NCBI GenBank assembly: GCA_019239445.1
Contig: JAFAZV010000386.1
Location: 1-36,548, forward strand
Reading direction: 5' to 3'
DNA length: 36,548 nucleotides
From: Solirubrobacterales bacterium
GTDB lineage: Bacteria > Actinomycetota > Thermoleophilia > Solirubrobacterales > Solirubrobacteraceae
In this document: positions 11,510 through 35,644 of the stretch, one piece after another
Layout of the letters: each line of letters starts with the position of its first letter
How positions within the stretch are numbered: position 1 is the first letter of the stretch
Position numbers and translations under genes: made by a program
The notes under the pieces: generated by a model
Told to the model about the DNA's origin: nothing
Databases searched by the model: none
Seen by the model: the letters and a program-made list of their open reading frames with translations, nothing else

Positions 11510-11635
11510 ATTCCTCCGCTGGTCGGTGAGGCGGAGCTCTGGAAGCCGGCGCTCGGCAGCGTAGTGCCCGCGGGAAGCGGCCGGATCGACATCGCCTCGC
11601 CAATCAGGCTGTACGCTGAGTTTGGACGCCGGCTC

Positions 11636-12871
11636 ATGACCCTGACGGACGACGCGGCGAACTCCGGACCAGGCGGCGCCGACGCGGCGCGCGAGCGACT
11701 CTTGTCCGCGCCGCGCCAGATTCTCGACGGGCTGCCGGACGCGGTGGTGGCAAGCGCGCGCGATGGACAGATCGTGTTCGTGAACGCGGTGGCCGAGGAG
11801 CTGTTCGGTTACCGGCGCGAGGAGCTGCTGGGACGTCACGTGGAGATGCTCTGGCCCATGCGAGAGCGCGCGCGCTACACGCGCAACATCGAGCTCTACT
11901 TCGCCACCGAGCATCCGCTCCGGTTCTCGGCCGAGGCCTGGGGGCTCAGGCGCGACGGCTCCGAGTTCGCGGGGGAGATGAGCTGGGGCATCGTGCGAAC
12001 CGCCGCCGGGCCGCTGCTGCTCGCCGTCGGTCGCGACATTTCCGAGCGGCGCACGGCGGAAGCGCGCGTACGGGCCCTGGCGAGGATGGGCGAGCGAGCT
12101 CTCGCCGGAGCCGACGCGGCGGTGCTCGCCGCGGAGGCAGCGCAGCTGGTGCTCGCGGTGCTGCCGGTCAGCGGCGCCGACGTACGGCTTGCCGACGGCT
12201 CCGTGCTGGCTCGCGTCGGCCGGATGGTGACGCCGAGCCTGACCGTGCCGATCGGCGCCGGCGATGAGCTGCGACTCGCCACCGAGTCCGATCTGCGCGA
12301 GGAGGAGCAGAGACTCACGCGCTCGATCGCCGACATCCTCGCCACCGCGCTGACGCGTCAGCGCAACGAGGAACGGATGCGCCACGACGCGCTGCACGAC
12401 CCGCTGACCGGGTTGGCCAACCGCACGTTGCTCCGCGATCGACTCGAGCATGCGCTCGCACGCACCCAGCGCGAAGGCGGTCGCACCGGTGTGCTGTTCA
12501 TCGACCTCGACAGCTTCAAGCAGGTCAACGACGCTCACGGGCACGCCGCGGGCGACGCTGTGCTCGTCGAGCTGGCCGGGCGGCTGCGTCGCGCCGTGCG
12601 CCCCTCGGACACCGTGGCCAGGCTCGGTGGAGATGAGTTCGTCGTAGTCTGCGAGCAGGTGGACGAGACAGCCGCACTTGCCCTCGGCCGGCGCTTACGC
12701 GCGCAGCTCGCGGTGGCGGTAAACGTCGGTGGGCGGGATCACGCGCTCTCGGCAAGTTTCGGCATCGCGCTCGGCGACGTGGATCCGGATGCGATCCTGA
12801 GCCGCGCCGACGCCGCGCTGTACCGCGCCAAGCAGGCGGGAGGCGGCCGCGTCGAGCTCGGCTCGAGCTGA
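11636..12871 (+). CDS. PAS-GGDEF diguanylate cyclase
   Basis: The 411-residue protein would make cyclic di-GMP in the cytoplasm. A PAS sensor (about 25-140, with ILDGLPDAVVASARDGQIVF) is followed by a degenerate GAF-like region (about 150-235) and a GGDEF domain (about 245-405). The catalytic GGDEF is intact (331-335), and an inhibitory I-site RPSD (322-325) sits exactly five residues before it, so product feedback inhibition is expected. There is no EAL or HD-GYP domain. The ATG at 11636 is preferred; an in-frame GTG at 11564 would add 24 unrelated residues. The epimerase gene follows 12 bases after the stop, so they may be cotranscribed. No transmembrane segment is present. Confidence 0.93.
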   Translation: MTLTDDAANSGPGGADAARERLLSAPRQILDGLPDAVVASARDGQIVFVNAVAEELFGYRREELLGRHVEMLWPMRERARYTRNIELYFATEHPLRFSAEAWGLRRDGSEFAGEMSWGIVRTAAGPLLLAVGRDISERRTAEARVRALARMGERALAGADAAVLAAEAAQLVLAVLPVSGADVRLADGSVLARVGRMVTPSLTVPIGAGDELRLATESDLREEEQRLTRSIADILATALTRQRNEERMRHDALHDPLTGLANRTLLRDRLEHALARTQREGGRTGVLFIDLDSFKQVNDAHGHAAGDAVLVELAGRLRRAVRPSDTVARLGGDEFVVVCEQVDETAALALGRRLRAQLAVAVNVGGRDHALSASFGIALGDVDPDAILSRADAALYRAKQAGGGRVELGSS

Positions 12872-28693: not shown

Positions 28694-29380
28694 CTAGTTC
28701 TGACTCGCTCGCTGGACGATCGCGTCGACCGTCTCGACGGCCTCGGACACGCGCCGGCAGACCCGGATCTGCGGGCGCATATGCTCCTCGGCCATCGGGT
28801 CACGGCCGCCGATCACGAATCCGGTCGATGGTCGGTGAGCTCGCACGGCATCGATCGCGCTGAGCAGCCGATCGCGCCCGGGCATCGTCGAGCTCAAGCA
28901 GATGACATCCGGCTCGTGGTGACGAGCAGCCGCGGCGAGGGCGTCGGCGGGCACGTCTGGTCCCAGCATGATCGTTTCATAACCGGCGGCGCGAACGAGG
29001 TTGGCCACCATGCGCAGGGCGACGACGTGCAGCTCGCCGGCTGGTGCGGCGAGCATCACCCGGCGCCGGAGGCGGGCGTCAGCTACGCGCTGAGCCTCGC
29101 GCTGCAGCGCCACGACCCGGAGCGAGATCTCGGTGGCGATGTGTTCGTCGGCCACGGTGATCTCGCCGCGCTCCCAAAGTTCACCCACACGCCACAGCGC
29201 CGTCGCGATCAGCTGCTCGTCGATCTCGGACGTGGTGAGGCTCGCGTCCATTGCTTCCCGGATCGTGCTCTCGGCAGCGATCTCGTCGCCCGAAAGCAGC
29301 GCCGAGGCAAATGCTTGCGCCAGCTCTCTGACCTTTTCCTGCCGGGATCCGCGCGAGCCGTGTTCTCGATCGTGGCTCAT
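28694..29380 (-). CDS. Stand-alone cobalamin-binding protein with CarH-type photoreceptor motifs
   Basis: The 228-residue cytoplasmic protein has a four-helix cap (about 15-100) and a Rossmann-like B12-binding domain (about 106-225). The cap contains W69-x9-E79-H80, the W-x9-EH signature of CarH-type adenosylcobalamin light sensors, and the B12 domain has E116-x-H118 (GELHVVALRM) where CarH has the E-x-H-x-x-G lower-ligand motif. Here the final Gly is Ala121. CarH and LitR normally carry an N-terminal MerR DNA-binding domain of about 70 residues; only about 14 residues precede the cap here, so DNA binding is not expected. It is 20 bases downstream of the permease-YHS gene, same strand, so probably cotranscribed. 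A methyltransferase corrinoid protein is the alternative. Confidence 0.85.
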   Translation of the reverse strand: MSHDREHGSRGSRQEKVRELAQAFASALLSGDEIAAESTIREAMDASLTTSEIDEQLIATALWRVGELWERGEITVADEHIATEISLRVVALQREAQRVADARLRRRVMLAAPAGELHVVALRMVANLVRAAGYETIMLGPDVPADALAAAARHHEPDVICLSSTMPGRDRLLSAIDAVRAHRPSTGFVIGGRDPMAEEHMRPQIRVCRRVSEAVETVDAIVQRASQN

Positions 29381-29400: not shown

Positions 29401-30690
29401 TTACTCCTGCTTGCCACGGGAGCCCGTTGGCGAGCGAGCGCGCAGACGCTCACCGTGCGCGGCGGACTGCACGTGCCGGCCGGGCAGGTTCCGGAAGTCA
29501 TCGCGGCAGTCGCTCGAGCAGAAGTAGTAGGTCTCCTCGCCGAGCTGCCTCTGAAAGGCCTTAGCGCGATCGACCTTCATCCCGCAAACGGGATCCGTGA
29601 CGCCGCGGCGAGCCGTGAGCCAGAACATGGCTCCGAAGATCAGGAGGCCGAAGACGTTGAGCGCGAGCTTGTAGTTCAGCCGGACCGAGCTGAAGATGTC
29701 TCCCCGGGTGGGCCGCGGCCCACTCGGGATCAGTCCGACGGCGCTGAAGACCCCACCGACCGCGAGCGCCGCGATCACCATCGTGGCGAACATCAGAAGC
29801 GTGATTCGAACCGTGAACCGCGTGCCGTAGTACTTACGGTAGATCAACAGGATCGGTATGACGATCAGGTCGGCGAACAGGAATGCGAGCACGCCCGCGA
29901 AGGAGATTCCGCCTGACCAGAGAACGGCGGCCAGGGGAACGTTGCCCACGGAGCAGACGAAGCTGATCACCGCGATGATCGGTCCGATGAGCACGTTCTC
30001 GATCGTCGGCAGCGGCGCGGGGGCGTCGTGGATGAAGAGGCTCTCGAAGAAGCCGTTGCCGAACTGAGCGATGAAGCCGGCGAGCAGGAATCCGATCGTG
30101 ATCTCCTTCCACAGCATCTGCCAGTCGCCGCGGAAATTGTGCGCGACGTCGGACCACGCTCGCGCGGAAGTCAGCCGCTCGCGCCACGGCAGCTGCTCGC
30201 CGGCCGCGTGATGCTGATGGCCGCTGTCTGCTGCCTGCGCGTGCTGGCGCGCCTCCTGCTCGAGCCGGCGGCTGACGAACAGCCGCAGCAGTAGCGTCAT
30301 CAGAACGATCATCACGATCCCGCCGACGTATTCGGCCACCGTGAACTGCCAGCCGATCAGCACCCACAACACCAGCCCGAGCTCCCAGACGAGGTTCGTC
30401 GAGGCGAACTGGAACGCGAGCGTGCTTGCTGCCGAGGCGCCTTTCTGAAACAGCGACTTGGCGATCGCGATCGCGGCGTAGGAGCAGGACGAGGACGCTG
30501 CGCCGAGCCCCGTGCTCCAGCCCACCGACCGCGCGCCGGAGCCGCTCATCAGCGCTTCGATGCGCGCCCGCGGCACCCACGCTTGCACGAGCGCCGAGAT
30601 CACGAACCCGAGCACGAGCGCCCACCAGACCTCCCAGGCCATCAGGAACGAGTCTCTGAGGCCGTGCCAGATTACTTCGAGAACGTCCAT
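29401..30690 (-). CDS. DUF318/YraQ-type permease fused to C-terminal YHS domain, probable metal transporter
   Basis: The 429-residue protein has eight or more membrane segments with the permease signature SSSCSYAAIAIAKS (about 65-79), a His-rich cytoplasmic loop (SGHQHHAAG, about 151-159) and a C-terminal YHS metal-binding domain (about 364-403: DPVCGMKVD and YYFCSSDC). YraQ/ArsP permeases export metal or metalloid compounds; the YHS and His loop suggest copper or a similar ion. The ATG at 30690 is preferred: the frame is open to 30786, but that would cross the CsoR operator and overlap csoR. It is divergent from csoR and followed by the B12-binding gene. Confidence 0.88.
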   Translation of the reverse strand: MDVLEVIWHGLRDSFLMAWEVWWALVLGFVISALVQAWVPRARIEALMSGSGARSVGWSTGLGAASSSCSYAAIAIAKSLFQKGASAASTLAFQFASTNLVWELGLVLWVLIGWQFTVAEYVGGIVMIVLMTLLLRLFVSRRLEQEARQHAQAADSGHQHHAAGEQLPWRERLTSARAWSDVAHNFRGDWQMLWKEITIGFLLAGFIAQFGNGFFESLFIHDAPAPLPTIENVLIGPIIAVISFVCSVGNVPLAAVLWSGGISFAGVLAFLFADLIVIPILLIYRKYYGTRFTVRITLLMFATMVIAALAVGGVFSAVGLIPSGPRPTRGDIFSSVRLNYKLALNVFGLLIFGAMFWLTARRGVTDPVCGMKVDRAKAFQRQLGEETYYFCSSDCRDDFRNLPGRHVQSAAHGERLRARSPTGSRGKQE

Positions 30691-30714: not shown

Positions 30715-30729
30715 TACCCCTACAGGGTA
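30715..30729. promoter_or_regulatory. CsoR operator-like palindrome
   Basis: TACCC (30715-30719) and GGGTA (30725-30729) form a perfect palindrome around five bases, like the G/C-tract operators of copper-sensing CsoR. It lies in the divergent permease/csoR gap. On the minus strand a TATATG (complement of 30711-30716) overlaps its edge as possible -10 of the permease gene, so a bound CsoR would block both promoters and release them with metal. Confidence 0.7.
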
Positions 30730-30746: not shown

Positions 30747-31043
30747 ATGTCCGAGGTCCAAGGCCCCACGCGGGGCTATACCGCAAGCAAGGACCAGCTG
30801 CTTGCCCGACTCGGCCGGATCGAGGGCCAAATTCGCGGCATCGGCGGGATGGTGCAGGCGGACCGCTACTGCATCGACATCCTCACGCAGATCAGCGCAG
30901 CCCAGGCCGCGCTGGACAAGGTCGCGCTCGGCTTACTCGACGATCACGCCCACCATTGTGTGCTCGGCGCGGAGGAAGAGAACCGCGACGCCAAGACCGA
31001 CGAGCTGCTGGCCGCGGTGGCGCGGTTGATGCGACGCCGCTGA
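30747..31043 (+). CDS. csoR: CsoR family metal-sensing repressor, copper-type
   Basis: The 98-residue all-helical repressor has the DUF156/CsoR pattern LLARLGRIEGQIRGIGGMV (19-36) and the copper triad Cys42 (RYCIDIL), His67 and Cys71 (H-x3-C), as in Mycobacterium CsoR. Apo-CsoR binds DNA and metal binding releases it. It is divergent from the permease-YHS gene over a palindromic operator, so it should regulate that gene and itself. FrmR or RcnR, which share the fold, differ in ligand residues; the C-H-C set favours Cu(I). The ATG at 30747 gives the standard length. Confidence 0.95.
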   Translation: MSEVQGPTRGYTASKDQLLARLGRIEGQIRGIGGMVQADRYCIDILTQISAAQAALDKVALGLLDDHAHHCVLGAEEENRDAKTDELLAAVARLMRRR

Positions 31044-31089: not shown

Positions 31090-31962
31090 GTGCTCGGACC
31101 CGCCGCGGCCCAGATCGAGACCTACCGCCGTGACGGCTTTCTGATCGTCGAGCAGTTCGTCGATCCTGGCGAGCTGGAGCTGATTCGCGAGCGCTTCGCG
31201 CGCGTATTCGAGCACGAGTGGGAAACCGGCCTTGCCCCCGACGAAGTGAACTACGTACCTGGCGCGACTCCGCCCGATCTAACGCGTCAGCTCTGCAACG
31301 TGTGGAAAGCCGACCGGGTTCTCGCGTCAGTTGTGCTCTCCGATCAGGTCGGCGAGTTTGCCGCGCGCCTGGCCGGACTACCCGGCGCCAGGATCGCGCA
31401 GGACAACGCGATCTGGAAGCCGCCCTCGGGCAAGGCGCTCTTGTGTCATCAGGATGCCGCGTATCTCGACCATCTCGATCCGCCGAACATGACCACCTGC
31501 TGGATGGCGCTCGACGACACGACTGCGGACGGCGGGACGATCTACTACGTCCGCGGCTCGCACCGGTGGCCGCACGCTCCGCTTGGTGGCACTTTTCACG
31601 CTCCGGATGATTGGCTCGCGCACGTGCGCAGCGCCGCACCGGCGGGATCGCAGCTCGAGCTCGTGCCGATCGAAGTTCCGGCTGGCGGCGCGGCGTTCCA
31701 CGACGGGTGGACCTTCCACGGCAGCCCGCCCAATCAGCGGGAGGATGCCGACCGGCGCTCGATCATCAGCCACATGATCTCGACCCAGACGCGTTGGAAT
31801 CCGGAGCACGCGCACCCGATCTATTCTCGCTATCGCAGACCCGGTGAGCGGGAACTCGACGAAGCGTTCTTCCCAATCCTGTGGCAGGACGGCTACCGCT
31901 CCGAGTGGCTGGGCGACTACTGCATCACACCGGCTGGGATGAGGCAGCTGCCGACTTTCTGA
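31090..31962 (+). CDS. Phytanoyl-CoA dioxygenase (PhyH) family Fe(II)/2-oxoglutarate oxygenase
   Basis: The 290-residue enzyme has the PhyH facial triad: His120-x-Asp122 in LLCHQDAAY and distal His210 in FHGSPPN, with Arg222/Arg223 for 2-oxoglutarate. Such enzymes hydroxylate varied small molecules, lipids or antibiotics. The start is the GTG at 31090, 46 bases after csoR, without a strong Shine-Dalgarno. It converges on crtY with 16 bases between stops, so it borders the carotenoid genes; oxidation of a terpenoid or lipid is possible but not shown. Ectoine hydroxylase is unlikely because the ectoine-type signature and ect genes are absent. Confidence 0.88.
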   Translation: MLGPAAAQIETYRRDGFLIVEQFVDPGELELIRERFARVFEHEWETGLAPDEVNYVPGATPPDLTRQLCNVWKADRVLASVVLSDQVGEFAARLAGLPGARIAQDNAIWKPPSGKALLCHQDAAYLDHLDPPNMTTCWMALDDTTADGGTIYYVRGSHRWPHAPLGGTFHAPDDWLAHVRSAAPAGSQLELVPIEVPAGGAAFHDGWTFHGSPPNQREDADRRSIISHMISTQTRWNPEHAHPIYSRYRRPGERELDEAFFPILWQDGYRSEWLGDYCITPAGMRQLPTF

Positions 31963-31978
31963 CCGCTCACACCCGGAG

Positions 31979-33193
31979 TCAGCGCGCGCTCCGCGAGGGG
32001 GACGCGGTCGCGGTGACAAGCGCCGCGCTGATCATGTGGCGCTTGGGCAACGCGGAGAGAATCTGAGCTTCGTCGCGTGTGGAGCTCACGTCGGTCATGA
32101 AGCGCGCCATCGCATCGGCGGGAACGGTTCGCGCCAGCGACACGAACATCTCCTCGCTCGCGTGACGGCGTGAGTGCAAAGCTGTCAGGAAGATCTTATC
32201 GAGCAGCCTGAACCGCGCCGGCCCGACCGACCGCGGAAGCGGTCGTCCGGCGGCAAACGCTTCCGCAATGCGGCTGACATGACGTTGGATGCGCGTGAAC
32301 GCGTAGCCGCTGGACGGGCGTATGGCTCCGGCGGCGGCACCGACGGCGTGCACTCTGGGCCCCCGATGGGTCGCAAAGGGATAGGTGGTCATCGGGATGA
32401 GCCCGCGTTCCTCGCGTAACACTCGCCACTGGCGAGCACGCCAGCGTTCTCCGAGTTCCGCCTCGAGCGTCATCCGTCGCTCCGCGGTGGGGGGGCCGCC
32501 GATCCCGATCGTCGTGTGCTCGACGAGCGCCCGCGTGGGCGAGAACGGAAGCACGTACATGAAGCAGACCCCACCTTCGTCGCCGGCGCGAAAGTCCATG
32601 AGCGTCATGATCGACGGATCGAAGACGGGCCGGTCGACCTCGACTTCCCAGCCCAGGAAGCGCTGAACGAGCTCGACCTCGCCCGCGGGGCGGGAACGCA
32701 CCAGGGGGCTGCGAGCGCCCATCGCGTCGAAGACGTGGTCCGCCTCGAACGTCGCGCCGGCGGTCCGAACTTTGGGATGCTCGCCGGAGGGATCGACGCC
32801 CAGCACGGTGCAACCGGTGAGCACTTCGACGTTTGGGGCCTCGGCGAGACGATCGAGCGCGGCTTCGTACACGACACGTGCGTCCAGATGGATGTAAGGA
32901 TGCCGCGCGGGGCGCGCGACGACGTCCTGCTCGCGCCAGCGTGTACGCCAGGCCCACCAGGACTGCGAGGCCAGAGGCGCGAACCGCAGCGGGCCGGTGA
33001 GCCACGTGCACCACGTGCGGTCACGCTCCCATGTACGACGGCGATCCACGAGCACGATCGGCTGGCTGACGCCGGCGTCCAGGAGCGCGTTCGCCAGCGA
33101 CAGCCCGGACAGTCCCGCACCCAGGATCGCGATCGGTCCCTCCTCGCTGCGAGGTTCGACCGCAGGCTGGGATCGCGCCACCGCGGCGCTCAA
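31979..33193 (-). CDS. crtY: Lycopene beta-cyclase, CrtY type
   Basis: The 404-residue flavoprotein cyclises the ends of lycopene to beta-rings. It has the FAD motif ILGAGLSGLSLA, the bacterial cyclase motif FLGWEVEVD followed by MDFRAGDEGG, FMYVLPFS, and GAAAGAIRPSSGYAF near the C-terminal side. The TTG at 33193 is chosen because a perfect AGGAGG (complement of 33200-33205) lies 6 bases upstream; the frame stays open to a TTG at 33265, but that has no ribosome-binding site and would add 24 basic residues ahead of the normal N-terminus. It is divergent from crtI-crtB and converges on the PhyH gene. Confidence 0.93.
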   Translation of the reverse strand: MSAAVARSQPAVEPRSEEGPIAILGAGLSGLSLANALLDAGVSQPIVLVDRRRTWERDRTWCTWLTGPLRFAPLASQSWWAWRTRWREQDVVARPARHPYIHLDARVVYEAALDRLAEAPNVEVLTGCTVLGVDPSGEHPKVRTAGATFEADHVFDAMGARSPLVRSRPAGEVELVQRFLGWEVEVDRPVFDPSIMTLMDFRAGDEGGVCFMYVLPFSPTRALVEHTTIGIGGPPTAERRMTLEAELGERWRARQWRVLREERGLIPMTTYPFATHRGPRVHAVGAAAGAIRPSSGYAFTRIQRHVSRIAEAFAAGRPLPRSVGPARFRLLDKIFLTALHSRRHASEEMFVSLARTVPADAMARFMTDVSSTRDEAQILSALPKRHMISAALVTATASPSRSAR

Positions 33194-33253
33194 CGGACTC
33201 CTCCTCGGACCCGGCTGCCTCGCTCGAAAGACGCGGTCACGACCGAACAGGAT

Positions 33254-33269
33254 AACCGGCTTCAACCGG
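33254..33269. repeat. Direct repeat AACCGG with 10-base period
   Basis: AACCGG occurs at 33254-33259 and 33264-33269, so the two copies lie one helical turn apart. They are in the crtY 5' leader on the minus strand, 15 bases from the crt palindrome. Helical phasing is typical of regulator half-sites, but two hexamers in GC-rich DNA can arise by chance. Confidence 0.4.
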
Positions 33270-33283
33270 ACGTGTAGTAGATT

Positions 33284-33300
33284 CTAAACATGACGTTTAG
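33284..33300. promoter_or_regulatory. Perfect palindrome between crtY and crtI, candidate operator
   Basis: CTAAAC (33284-33289) and GTTTAG (33295-33300) are exact complements around ATGAC. On the minus strand a TAGAAT (complement of 33281-33286) could be the crtY -10, with the palindrome filling the spacer. The crtI GTG is 24 bases downstream. The AT-rich arms stand out from GC-rich surroundings. It does not match the TACA-type CarH repeats known from Thermus. Confidence 0.65.
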
Positions 33301-33324
33301 GCAACCAGCACGGGGGGAGCTGCC

Positions 33325-34788
33325 GTGAAGGTCGCCGTCATCGGCGCTGGGCTCGGCGGCCTCGCCGCGGCGCTGCGTCTTCAGGGGCTTGGCTGCGACG
33401 TCATCGTCCTCGAGCAAAACGATGGCCCGGGTGGACGCGCAAGTCGCATCCGCTCGGCTGGTTTCACCTGGGACACCGGCCCCTCGTTGATCACGATGCC
33501 GTGGGTGCTGGAGGAGACGTTCGCCGCGGGCGGGCTCGATCTCCACCGGGAGGTGACGCTGAGGCGACTTGATCCGCTCTACCGCATCAGGTGGGCCGAT
33601 GAGGAACGCAGCTTCGACTTCGCCGACTCCGCCGAGCGCCTCCGCGCGGAGGTGGCGCAATTCTCCGAGCGCGACGCGCGACGCGTGGGCGACTTTCTCG
33701 ACGCGCTCGCGCCCATCTACGAGCAAGGCATCCTCGCCGCCGGGCAGCGTCCGATTCAGGATCTTCGCTCCTTCCTGGCACTGCTGCCGATGATGTCCCG
33801 CTTGCGCGCAGCAGGGCCGCTGTACGACTTCGTGGCGCGCTACTTCGAGCACCCGCGCGTGCGCGAGGCGTTCTCCTTTCACTCCCTTTTCATCGGTGGT
33901 GACCCGTTCCGGGTGCCGGCCATCTACGGCGCCCTCGTCTACCTGCAGGTGCTCGATGGCGGCTGGTACGCGGACGGCGGCGTGTTCTCTCTGGTCGAGG
34001 CGATGGCGCAGCCACTCGAGATTCGCTACGGCACTCGCGTGGAAGCGATCGCGACAGCAGGCGATCGCGTGAGCGGCGTGCGCCTGATAAACGGCGAGCA
34101 GCTCAGCTGCGATGTCGTTGTCTCGAACGCCGACGTGCTGCAGACGCACGTGCTGCTCGGGCGTGGGCAGGGCCTGAGGCGGTTGAAGCCTTCGATGTCG
34201 TGCTTCCTGCTCTATCTCGGACTCGACCGCCGCCTTGAAGGTCTGCGTCACCACACGTTGCTGGTGGGCCCCGGCTACCGGGAGTTCATCCAGACGGTCA
34301 CTCGCGGCCGGAACCTGCCGGGGTCGCTTTCCACCTACGTCCACGCTCCGACGCGTACCGACCCTGCGATGGCCCCTCCGGGAGGCGATTCGCTCGCGGT
34401 GCTGCTTCCGGTGCCGAACCTGAGCGCGCAGGTTGATTGGCCAGCCGCCGCCGAGGAAGTGCGCGAACGCGTCGTCACCGATCTGGAGCGCACTTACGCG
34501 CTCAACGGACTAGCCGGTTCGATCCAGGTCGAGCATCGCTGGACGCCGATCGACTTCCAGCGGCGCTTCGGCGCCGTCGACGGCAACGCGTTCTCGGTCG
34601 AGCCGACGCTGCACCAGTCGGCGTTGTTCCGGCCGCCGAACCGGGTACGGGGGCTGCGCGGCATGTACCAGGTCGGTGCGGGGACGCATCCTGGGGCGGG
34701 AATTCCCGGAGTCCTGCTCGGGGCCTCGGTGACCGCGGCGTTGATCGCTGCCGACGCTGGACTCCGCGAGCCAGCCTGGAGCCTTTGA
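33325..34788 (+). CDS. crtI: Phytoene desaturase, CrtI type
   Basis: The 487-residue FAD enzyme desaturates phytoene toward lycopene. It has the N-terminal motif AVIGAGLGGLAAALRLQG, the GPGGRAS motif and the C-terminal CrtI signature YQVGAGTHPGAGIPGVLLGA. Length is typical (490-510). GGGGGAG lies 5 bases before the GTG at 33325. crtB follows after 1 base, indicating one transcript. How many desaturation steps it performs (lycopene versus neurosporene) cannot be told by eye; a neighbouring CrtY favours lycopene. CrtD- or CrtN-like relatives are alternatives, but this context and the signature favour CrtI. Confidence 0.95.
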   Translation: MKVAVIGAGLGGLAAALRLQGLGCDVIVLEQNDGPGGRASRIRSAGFTWDTGPSLITMPWVLEETFAAGGLDLHREVTLRRLDPLYRIRWADEERSFDFADSAERLRAEVAQFSERDARRVGDFLDALAPIYEQGILAAGQRPIQDLRSFLALLPMMSRLRAAGPLYDFVARYFEHPRVREAFSFHSLFIGGDPFRVPAIYGALVYLQVLDGGWYADGGVFSLVEAMAQPLEIRYGTRVEAIATAGDRVSGVRLINGEQLSCDVVVSNADVLQTHVLLGRGQGLRRLKPSMSCFLLYLGLDRRLEGLRHHTLLVGPGYREFIQTVTRGRNLPGSLSTYVHAPTRTDPAMAPPGGDSLAVLLPVPNLSAQVDWPAAAEEVRERVVTDLERTYALNGLAGSIQVEHRWTPIDFQRRFGAVDGNAFSVEPTLHQSALFRPPNRVRGLRGMYQVGAGTHPGAGIPGVLLGASVTAALIAADAGLREPAWSL

Positions 34789-34789
34789 G

Positions 34790-35644
34790 ATGGCGGTAGG
34801 CGTACTACCGACCCCAAGGCTCGCCGATGTCGATGCAGTCCGGCAGCTCCGGCGCCGGGCGCAGCTCGTGACCGAGCAGAAGGCAACCACGTTTGCCTTC
34901 GCCTGTCGGCTTCTCCCGAATGACGTACGCGATGACGTCTACCTGCTGTACCTGGTCTTCCGCGCCCTCGACGACCTCGTCGATCAGGGCGCCTCGGACG
35001 CACCGGAGCGCGTGCGAGCAGTCGCGCGATGGGCCGAAGAGGCCGCTCGCGAGCCGACGCCCGAGGTGATCGTGCTGGAGTCGCTGGCTCGGCGCTATCC
35101 GTTGCCGCGCCAAGCGGTGGGTGACTTCTGCGTCGCGATGGATCAAGATCTGGCCGGGGCTCGCTTCGCCACCGAGCGCGAGCTCGAGCGCTACTGCTAT
35201 CGGGTCGCCGGCACGGTCGGGATCGTGCTGGCCTCGCTGCTCGGAGTTCGCGACGAGCTGGAGGCGTACCCCGCTGCGGGAGCCCTCGGGATGGCGATGC
35301 AGCGAACGAACATCCTGCGCGACATCGACGAGGACGCGGAGTCAGGGCGCGTTTATATCTCCGACGAGGCGCTCGCGCGACATGGCGGCTCGCTCGAGCC
35401 GGGACGCCGGGGGGCACTCGTGCGCGCTCAAATCGCTCGCGCGGATGAGCTCTACGAGGACGGCATGGCCGGAATCGGCCTCTTGCGACGCGGCCGCGGC
35501 GCAATCACCCTTGCCGCGACGCTGTACCGCGAGATCCTCCGCGAGATCGAGAGGCAAGGCTACGGCCAGCAGCCAGGGCGCGTGGTGGTGCCCAACCCCC
35601 GCAAGCTGTTGACCGCACTGCGCGCTACGTTGCTACCGGTCTGA
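34790..35644 (+). CDS. crtB: Phytoene synthase
   Basis: The 284-residue enzyme condenses two geranylgeranyl diphosphates to phytoene. Both Asp-rich metal-binding motifs are intact: DDLVD (61-65) and RDIDEDAESGRVYI (177-190). The ATG at 34790 is one base after the crtI stop, so the two are translationally coupled. The length fits bacterial CrtB. The squalene synthase HpnC/HpnD relatives share the fold, but pairing with CrtI and CrtY makes CrtB the clear choice. GGPP must come from a crtE or other prenyl synthase outside the window. Confidence 0.95.
   Translation: MAVGVLPTPRLADVDAVRQLRRRAQLVTEQKATTFAFACRLLPNDVRDDVYLLYLVFRALDDLVDQGASDAPERVRAVARWAEEAAREPTPEVIVLESLARRYPLPRQAVGDFCVAMDQDLAGARFATERELERYCYRVAGTVGIVLASLLGVRDELEAYPAAGALGMAMQRTNILRDIDEDAESGRVYISDEALARHGGSLEPGRRGALVRAQIARADELYEDGMAGIGLLRRGRGAITLAATLYREILREIERQGYGQQPGRVVVPNPRKLLTALRATLLPV

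Follow-up and report, generated by a model that had tools for sequence, protein, structure and literature searches.

A stand-alone CarH-type B12-binding protein in Solirubrobacterales, a candidate light sensor acting in trans

Encoded in the window analysed here (the whole stretch of 36,548 nucleotides, which is one entire contig from a draft genome of 4.3 Mb with 92.5% completeness and 6.9% contamination) is a CarH-type B12 domain protein that stands alone, without the DNA-binding half; this assignment of the open reading frame at 28694-29380 is confirmed. The protein is fairly probably a minimal light sensor based on adenosylcobalamin (AdoCbl), namely a CarH-type CBD that is encoded on its own and acts in trans on a partner encoded elsewhere; AdoCbl binding, the light response, the partner and the target are what we infer. 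Since the module has no DNA-binding domain, it must, if it is a regulator, act through another molecule. The gene and the parts of its product are:

28694 to 29380, minus strand: stand-alone cobalamin-binding protein of 228 amino acids from the ATG (open reading frame, Pfam, alignment and AlphaFold)
Residues 21-91 of the protein: cap helices (W69, E79-H80)
Residues 107-204 of the protein: Rossmann-like B12-binding domain (G115-E116-x-H118, G140-P144)
28694 to 28720, minus strand: clade-specific C-terminal tail, ...QRASQN-stop (RAGLN, RPGLN or RSALN in relatives; alignment and tree)

Pfam recognises exactly two domains in the protein, B12-binding_2 (PF02607, residues 21-91, E 4e-14) and B12-binding (PF02310, residues 107-204, E 8e-17), and no helix-turn-helix within the 228 residues; the N-terminal MerR helix-turn-helix expected of a CarH transcription factor is likewise not found. 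The missing DNA-binding domain claimed by the original prediction is thus borne out, and a check of the sequence shows that W69, E79, H80, E116 and H118 had been placed correctly. In the SignatureFinder study, the signature GxxW, EH, GxxH and GxxxP was derived from light-responsive domains, and proteins bearing it were validated (PMC11796333). All four elements are present here (G66xxW69, E79H80, G115xxH118 and G140xxxP144), and a search of all six reading frames of the window gave a single occurrence of the spaced signature, while 20,000 permutations of the protein gave none. Further, most relatives carry the full signature, and W69, E79, H80, G115, E116 and H118 are invariant in an 11-member alignment of relatives. 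Such residues would predict a light response, short of proving one.

In the AlphaFold model, built with 25 relatives (pLDDT 93), a helical cap precedes an alpha/beta domain, and there are no domains besides these. The comparison with CarH suggested at the outset yields a match domain by domain, both for the helical cap and for the Rossmann-like B12 fold, and Foldseek ranks CtMerR, a photocobilin and TtCarH highest. The likeness is claimed at the level of domains only, because the whole-chain rmsd is about 16 A (Foldseek, VIA), the cap being oriented differently towards the B12 domain in the model. A search of the PDB with the clade profile returned photocobilins (1e-30), CtMerR (3e-30) and TtCarH (1e-21 to 1e-22), all of them reported as light-responsive, with AerR a weak match (7te2, 3e-6) far below CarH and photocobilin. 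The NCBIfam CarH model, whose cut-off is 400 bits, was matched in its CBD part only and scored 71 bits.

Relatives were collected by a profile search of genome contigs, which gave 60 loci, a single-protein query having given none. Among 232 genomes of the order, full-length stand-alone members with the tail occur in eight besides the host, at 38 to about 61-62% identity, the closest being that of Solirubrobacter taibaiensis (61-62%). Scores across 396 genomes drawn from the whole phylum were 317 and 289 bits inside the order and at most 142 elsewhere. The stand-alone clade is small, patchy and, in the genomes sampled, seen only in Solirubrobacterales. Its last residue is Asn in all nine members, mostly within the pattern ...R-A-x-L-N, and this tail is not shared by the other aligned relatives outside the clade. 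In the tree the clade makes up one side of a branch of moderate support (84/89), apart from the MerR-CarH proteins of the same genome; the group closest to the clade is that of the CBD-GGDEF fusions, which are themselves held together weakly (36/12).

With CarH of Thermus and Myxococcus and with CtMerR, the protein has in common the cap and B12 domain, W-x9-EH, GxxH, GxxxP and the same domain folds, but it lacks their MerR DNA-binding domain, its relatives are not tied to crt genes, and its clade is distinct from the CarH proteins of its own genome. Photocobilins (the stand-alone SasPcob and AbDPcob, a DGC fusion) offer the closest CBD sequence among solved structures; unlike them, the 228-residue protein ends after the CBD and has no bilin-binding globin-like domain. 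Nearest outside the clade are the CBD-GGDEF proteins of Solirubrobacterales (L047, L048 and L051), most of which share the signature, although they are fused to a diguanylate cyclase and lack the Asn tail. AerR/PpaA of Rhodobacter, co-regulator of CrtJ/PpsR, is also a B12 protein without a helix-turn-helix that acts on a repressor, and shares the ExH ligand motif, yet it matches the clade profile weakly and is not the nearest relative. Light-responsive B12 domains in the cited literature are mostly fused to an output domain or a second chromophore domain, and no description of CBD-only proteins was found in the literature searched, figures and supplements aside.

The surroundings of the gene suggest roles of their own, and these have to be weighed against a light sensor acting in trans. 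Upstream of the B12 gene lie:

29401 to 30690, minus strand: ArsP_1 permease with a C-terminal YHS domain, Cu/Zn efflux-like (Pfam, NCBIfam and comparison of loci)
30715 to 30729: TACCC-CTACA-GGGTA, a perfect inverted repeat lying between csoR and the divergently oriented permease gene
30747 to 31043, plus strand: CsoR/RicR-type copper-sensing repressor, divergent from the permease
31979 to 35644: crtY (minus strand), crtI (plus strand) and crtB (plus strand), neighbours of the B12 gene and candidate targets by proximity only
33284 to 33300: palindrome CTAAACATGACGTTTAG between crtY and crtI, CTAAAC-N5-GTTTAG, exact, with no tie to the B12 protein found

The B12 gene is located 20 bp downstream of the permease on the same strand, and the two are probably co-transcribed; the likely start of the permease, judged from where its relatives align, is the ATG at 30690, the listed open reading frame extending to 30786. 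The pair of csoR and permease resembles a metal cassette, and the repeat TACCC-N5-GGGTA between them looks like a CsoR operator, an arrangement that would suit an accessory protein of a copper-efflux operon. Such a role is highly improbable given that csoR adjoins the permease at 20 of 24 other loci, the pair being widespread in the order, and the B12 gene was seen at none of the 24 (flanks of about 1.5 kb, less at contig ends). A function in the copper operon was rejected on this conservation of the pair without the B12 gene and, for the same reason, the operon position is peculiar to the host genome, as sampled. Around the orthologues, no conserved partner gene was found; MarR (L043), ArsR-AHSA1 (L045) and STAS (L042) genes are each a neighbour once, which by our estimate is about the frequency expected by chance, and a helix-turn-helix partner next door was rejected. 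In genome G060 (L040, 8675-9143) a cobalamin riboswitch (41.5 bits) and cbtBA are arranged head to head with the orthologue; within the window, no RNA family or riboswitch was found. There are B12-domain proteins that respond to cobalamin or other cues instead of light, and the riboswitch and cobalt transporter genes of G060 would fit a light-independent sensor of the AdoCbl level (B12 status) acting on an unlinked partner, for which the same binding site would suffice. We hold this to be unlikely, considering that the cobalt transporter neighbour occurs in one genome only, that the nearest solved relatives are photoreceptors, and that the light signature, derived from and validated on photoreceptors, is complete. 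Corrinoid carriers of methyltransferases (MtaC/MttC kind) are built of the same two domains and are similar in length, but hardly any weight can be given to a carrier function: the corresponding NCBIfam models score about 40-49 bits, far under their cut-offs of 215-450, and the W-x9-EH cap signature, invariant in the relatives, is absent from MttC, whose aligned segment reads GQGELFLPHVLAAAE, with W and EH both missing. Moreover, no methyltransferase was recognised among the genes of the window and the orthologue neighbours examined. The original prediction would have been given up if orthologues always had a methyltransferase as neighbour and never lay close to crt genes; the second is what was found in the flanks examined, the host genome excepted, but not the first.

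The proposal that a separate sensing subunit works with another DNA-binding protein, possibly at the crtY/crtI palindrome, started from the closeness of carotenoid genes. The crtY gene ends 2.6 kb away, but csoR and phyH intervene and the permease is the immediate neighbour. The phyH gene, encoding a PhyH-type dioxygenase (31090-31962), is situated between csoR and crtY and is convergent with crtY. The palindrome is real and its exact form unique in the genome, and AerR and CrtJ would provide a precedent for a light-sensing subunit that serves a repressor of the neighbouring crt genes. By our estimate, chance alone would give about 0.2 such perfect 6+6 arms in an intergenic region of that length. 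As a shared operator, the palindrome was rejected: there is one exact copy in the genome, forms with two mismatches are fewer than those of the reversed control, and the related crtY/crtI locus of G134, the one other such locus of the genus, lacks it. When CrtY, CrtI and CrtB of the window were searched by tblastn against the flanks of the eight orthologues, which reached at most about 9 kb on either side and were shortened by contig ends in L041, L042, L043 and L045, no crt match was obtained. At six Myxococcota loci, of which five are flagged MerR-type, the same search did place crtI and crtB next to the CBD gene, and it was therefore able to detect such linkage. The conserved crt linkage expected of CarH is thus not seen in the clade, within flanks that at some loci stop short at a contig end. 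CrtY is present at full strength in 7 of the 232 genomes and the clade in 9; they overlap in the window genome only, an overlap of about 0.3 being expected by chance, so that their co-occurrence neither supports nor strongly refutes a linkage. Of the eight further clade genomes, only two contain a close CrtI (66-70%), and it is encoded there on other contigs. Because closeness to pigment genes is peculiar to the host genome, carotenoid control is unsupported, and crt regulation, rejected on gene context and co-occurrence, is unlikely; for a repressor subunit acting at the palindrome, a site not conserved in G134, the case is very slim, the more so as two MerR-CarH proteins are present. What survives of the proposal is the CarH-type module without a helix-turn-helix, and not its link to carotenoid genes. 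The two MerR-CarH-like proteins are complete and encoded elsewhere in the genome (L057 6675-7559 and L059 1892-2989), and both could serve in carotenoid control. A sigma-70 factor gene is found near one, and short-chain dehydrogenase (SDR) and DUF427 genes near the other. CarH CBDs oligomerise in the dark, and with two such proteins encoded, the B12 protein might partner them in mixed oligomers that modulate their DNA binding. Given an identity of 23-28%, separate clades and different loci, this is distinctly improbable.

For the AdoCbl-based light sensor acting in trans, the following course of events may be envisaged. In the dark, AdoCbl would be held between W69, E79 and H80 of the cap and H118 as the lower axial ligand. 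Cleavage of the Co-C bond by green or blue light would then bring about a change of conformation or oligomer, and direct contact, perhaps via the conserved C-terminal tail, would transmit this change to a separate effector protein. The effector would more likely be an unlinked signalling protein, such as a diguanylate cyclase as for photocobilins or the organism's own CarH, than the crt genes. It is plausible for a sensor to lack an output domain, because AerR acts on CrtJ (PMC6199135) and, in vitro, stand-alone photocobilins control a diguanylate cyclase in trans (PMC10979010). AdoCbl should be available, since an ATP:cob(I)alamin adenosyltransferase and mutase B12 domains are encoded in the genome. 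Three GGDEF proteins over the cut-off are also encoded, one of them in the window, 16 kb from the B12 gene:

11564 to 12871, plus strand: PAS-GGDEF diguanylate cyclase, candidate trans partner by analogy only (GGDEF search)

A more specific reading, which we put forward tentatively and regard as rather doubtful, is that the clade constitutes a portable soluble light-sensing subunit that docks through its Asn tail on a diguanylate cyclase or CarH as its specific effector.

Overall, control of the crt genes would have been the more striking claim, but it fails on gene context. If the docking reading is true, the clade would represent a two-component version of what its relatives achieve by fusion. 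Further, if light sensing is true, the protein would offer a compact green-light module for optogenetics. The occurrence of a sensor-only protein of 228 residues beside full CarH proteins in one organism raises the question of which partner a soluble B12 light sensor would serve.
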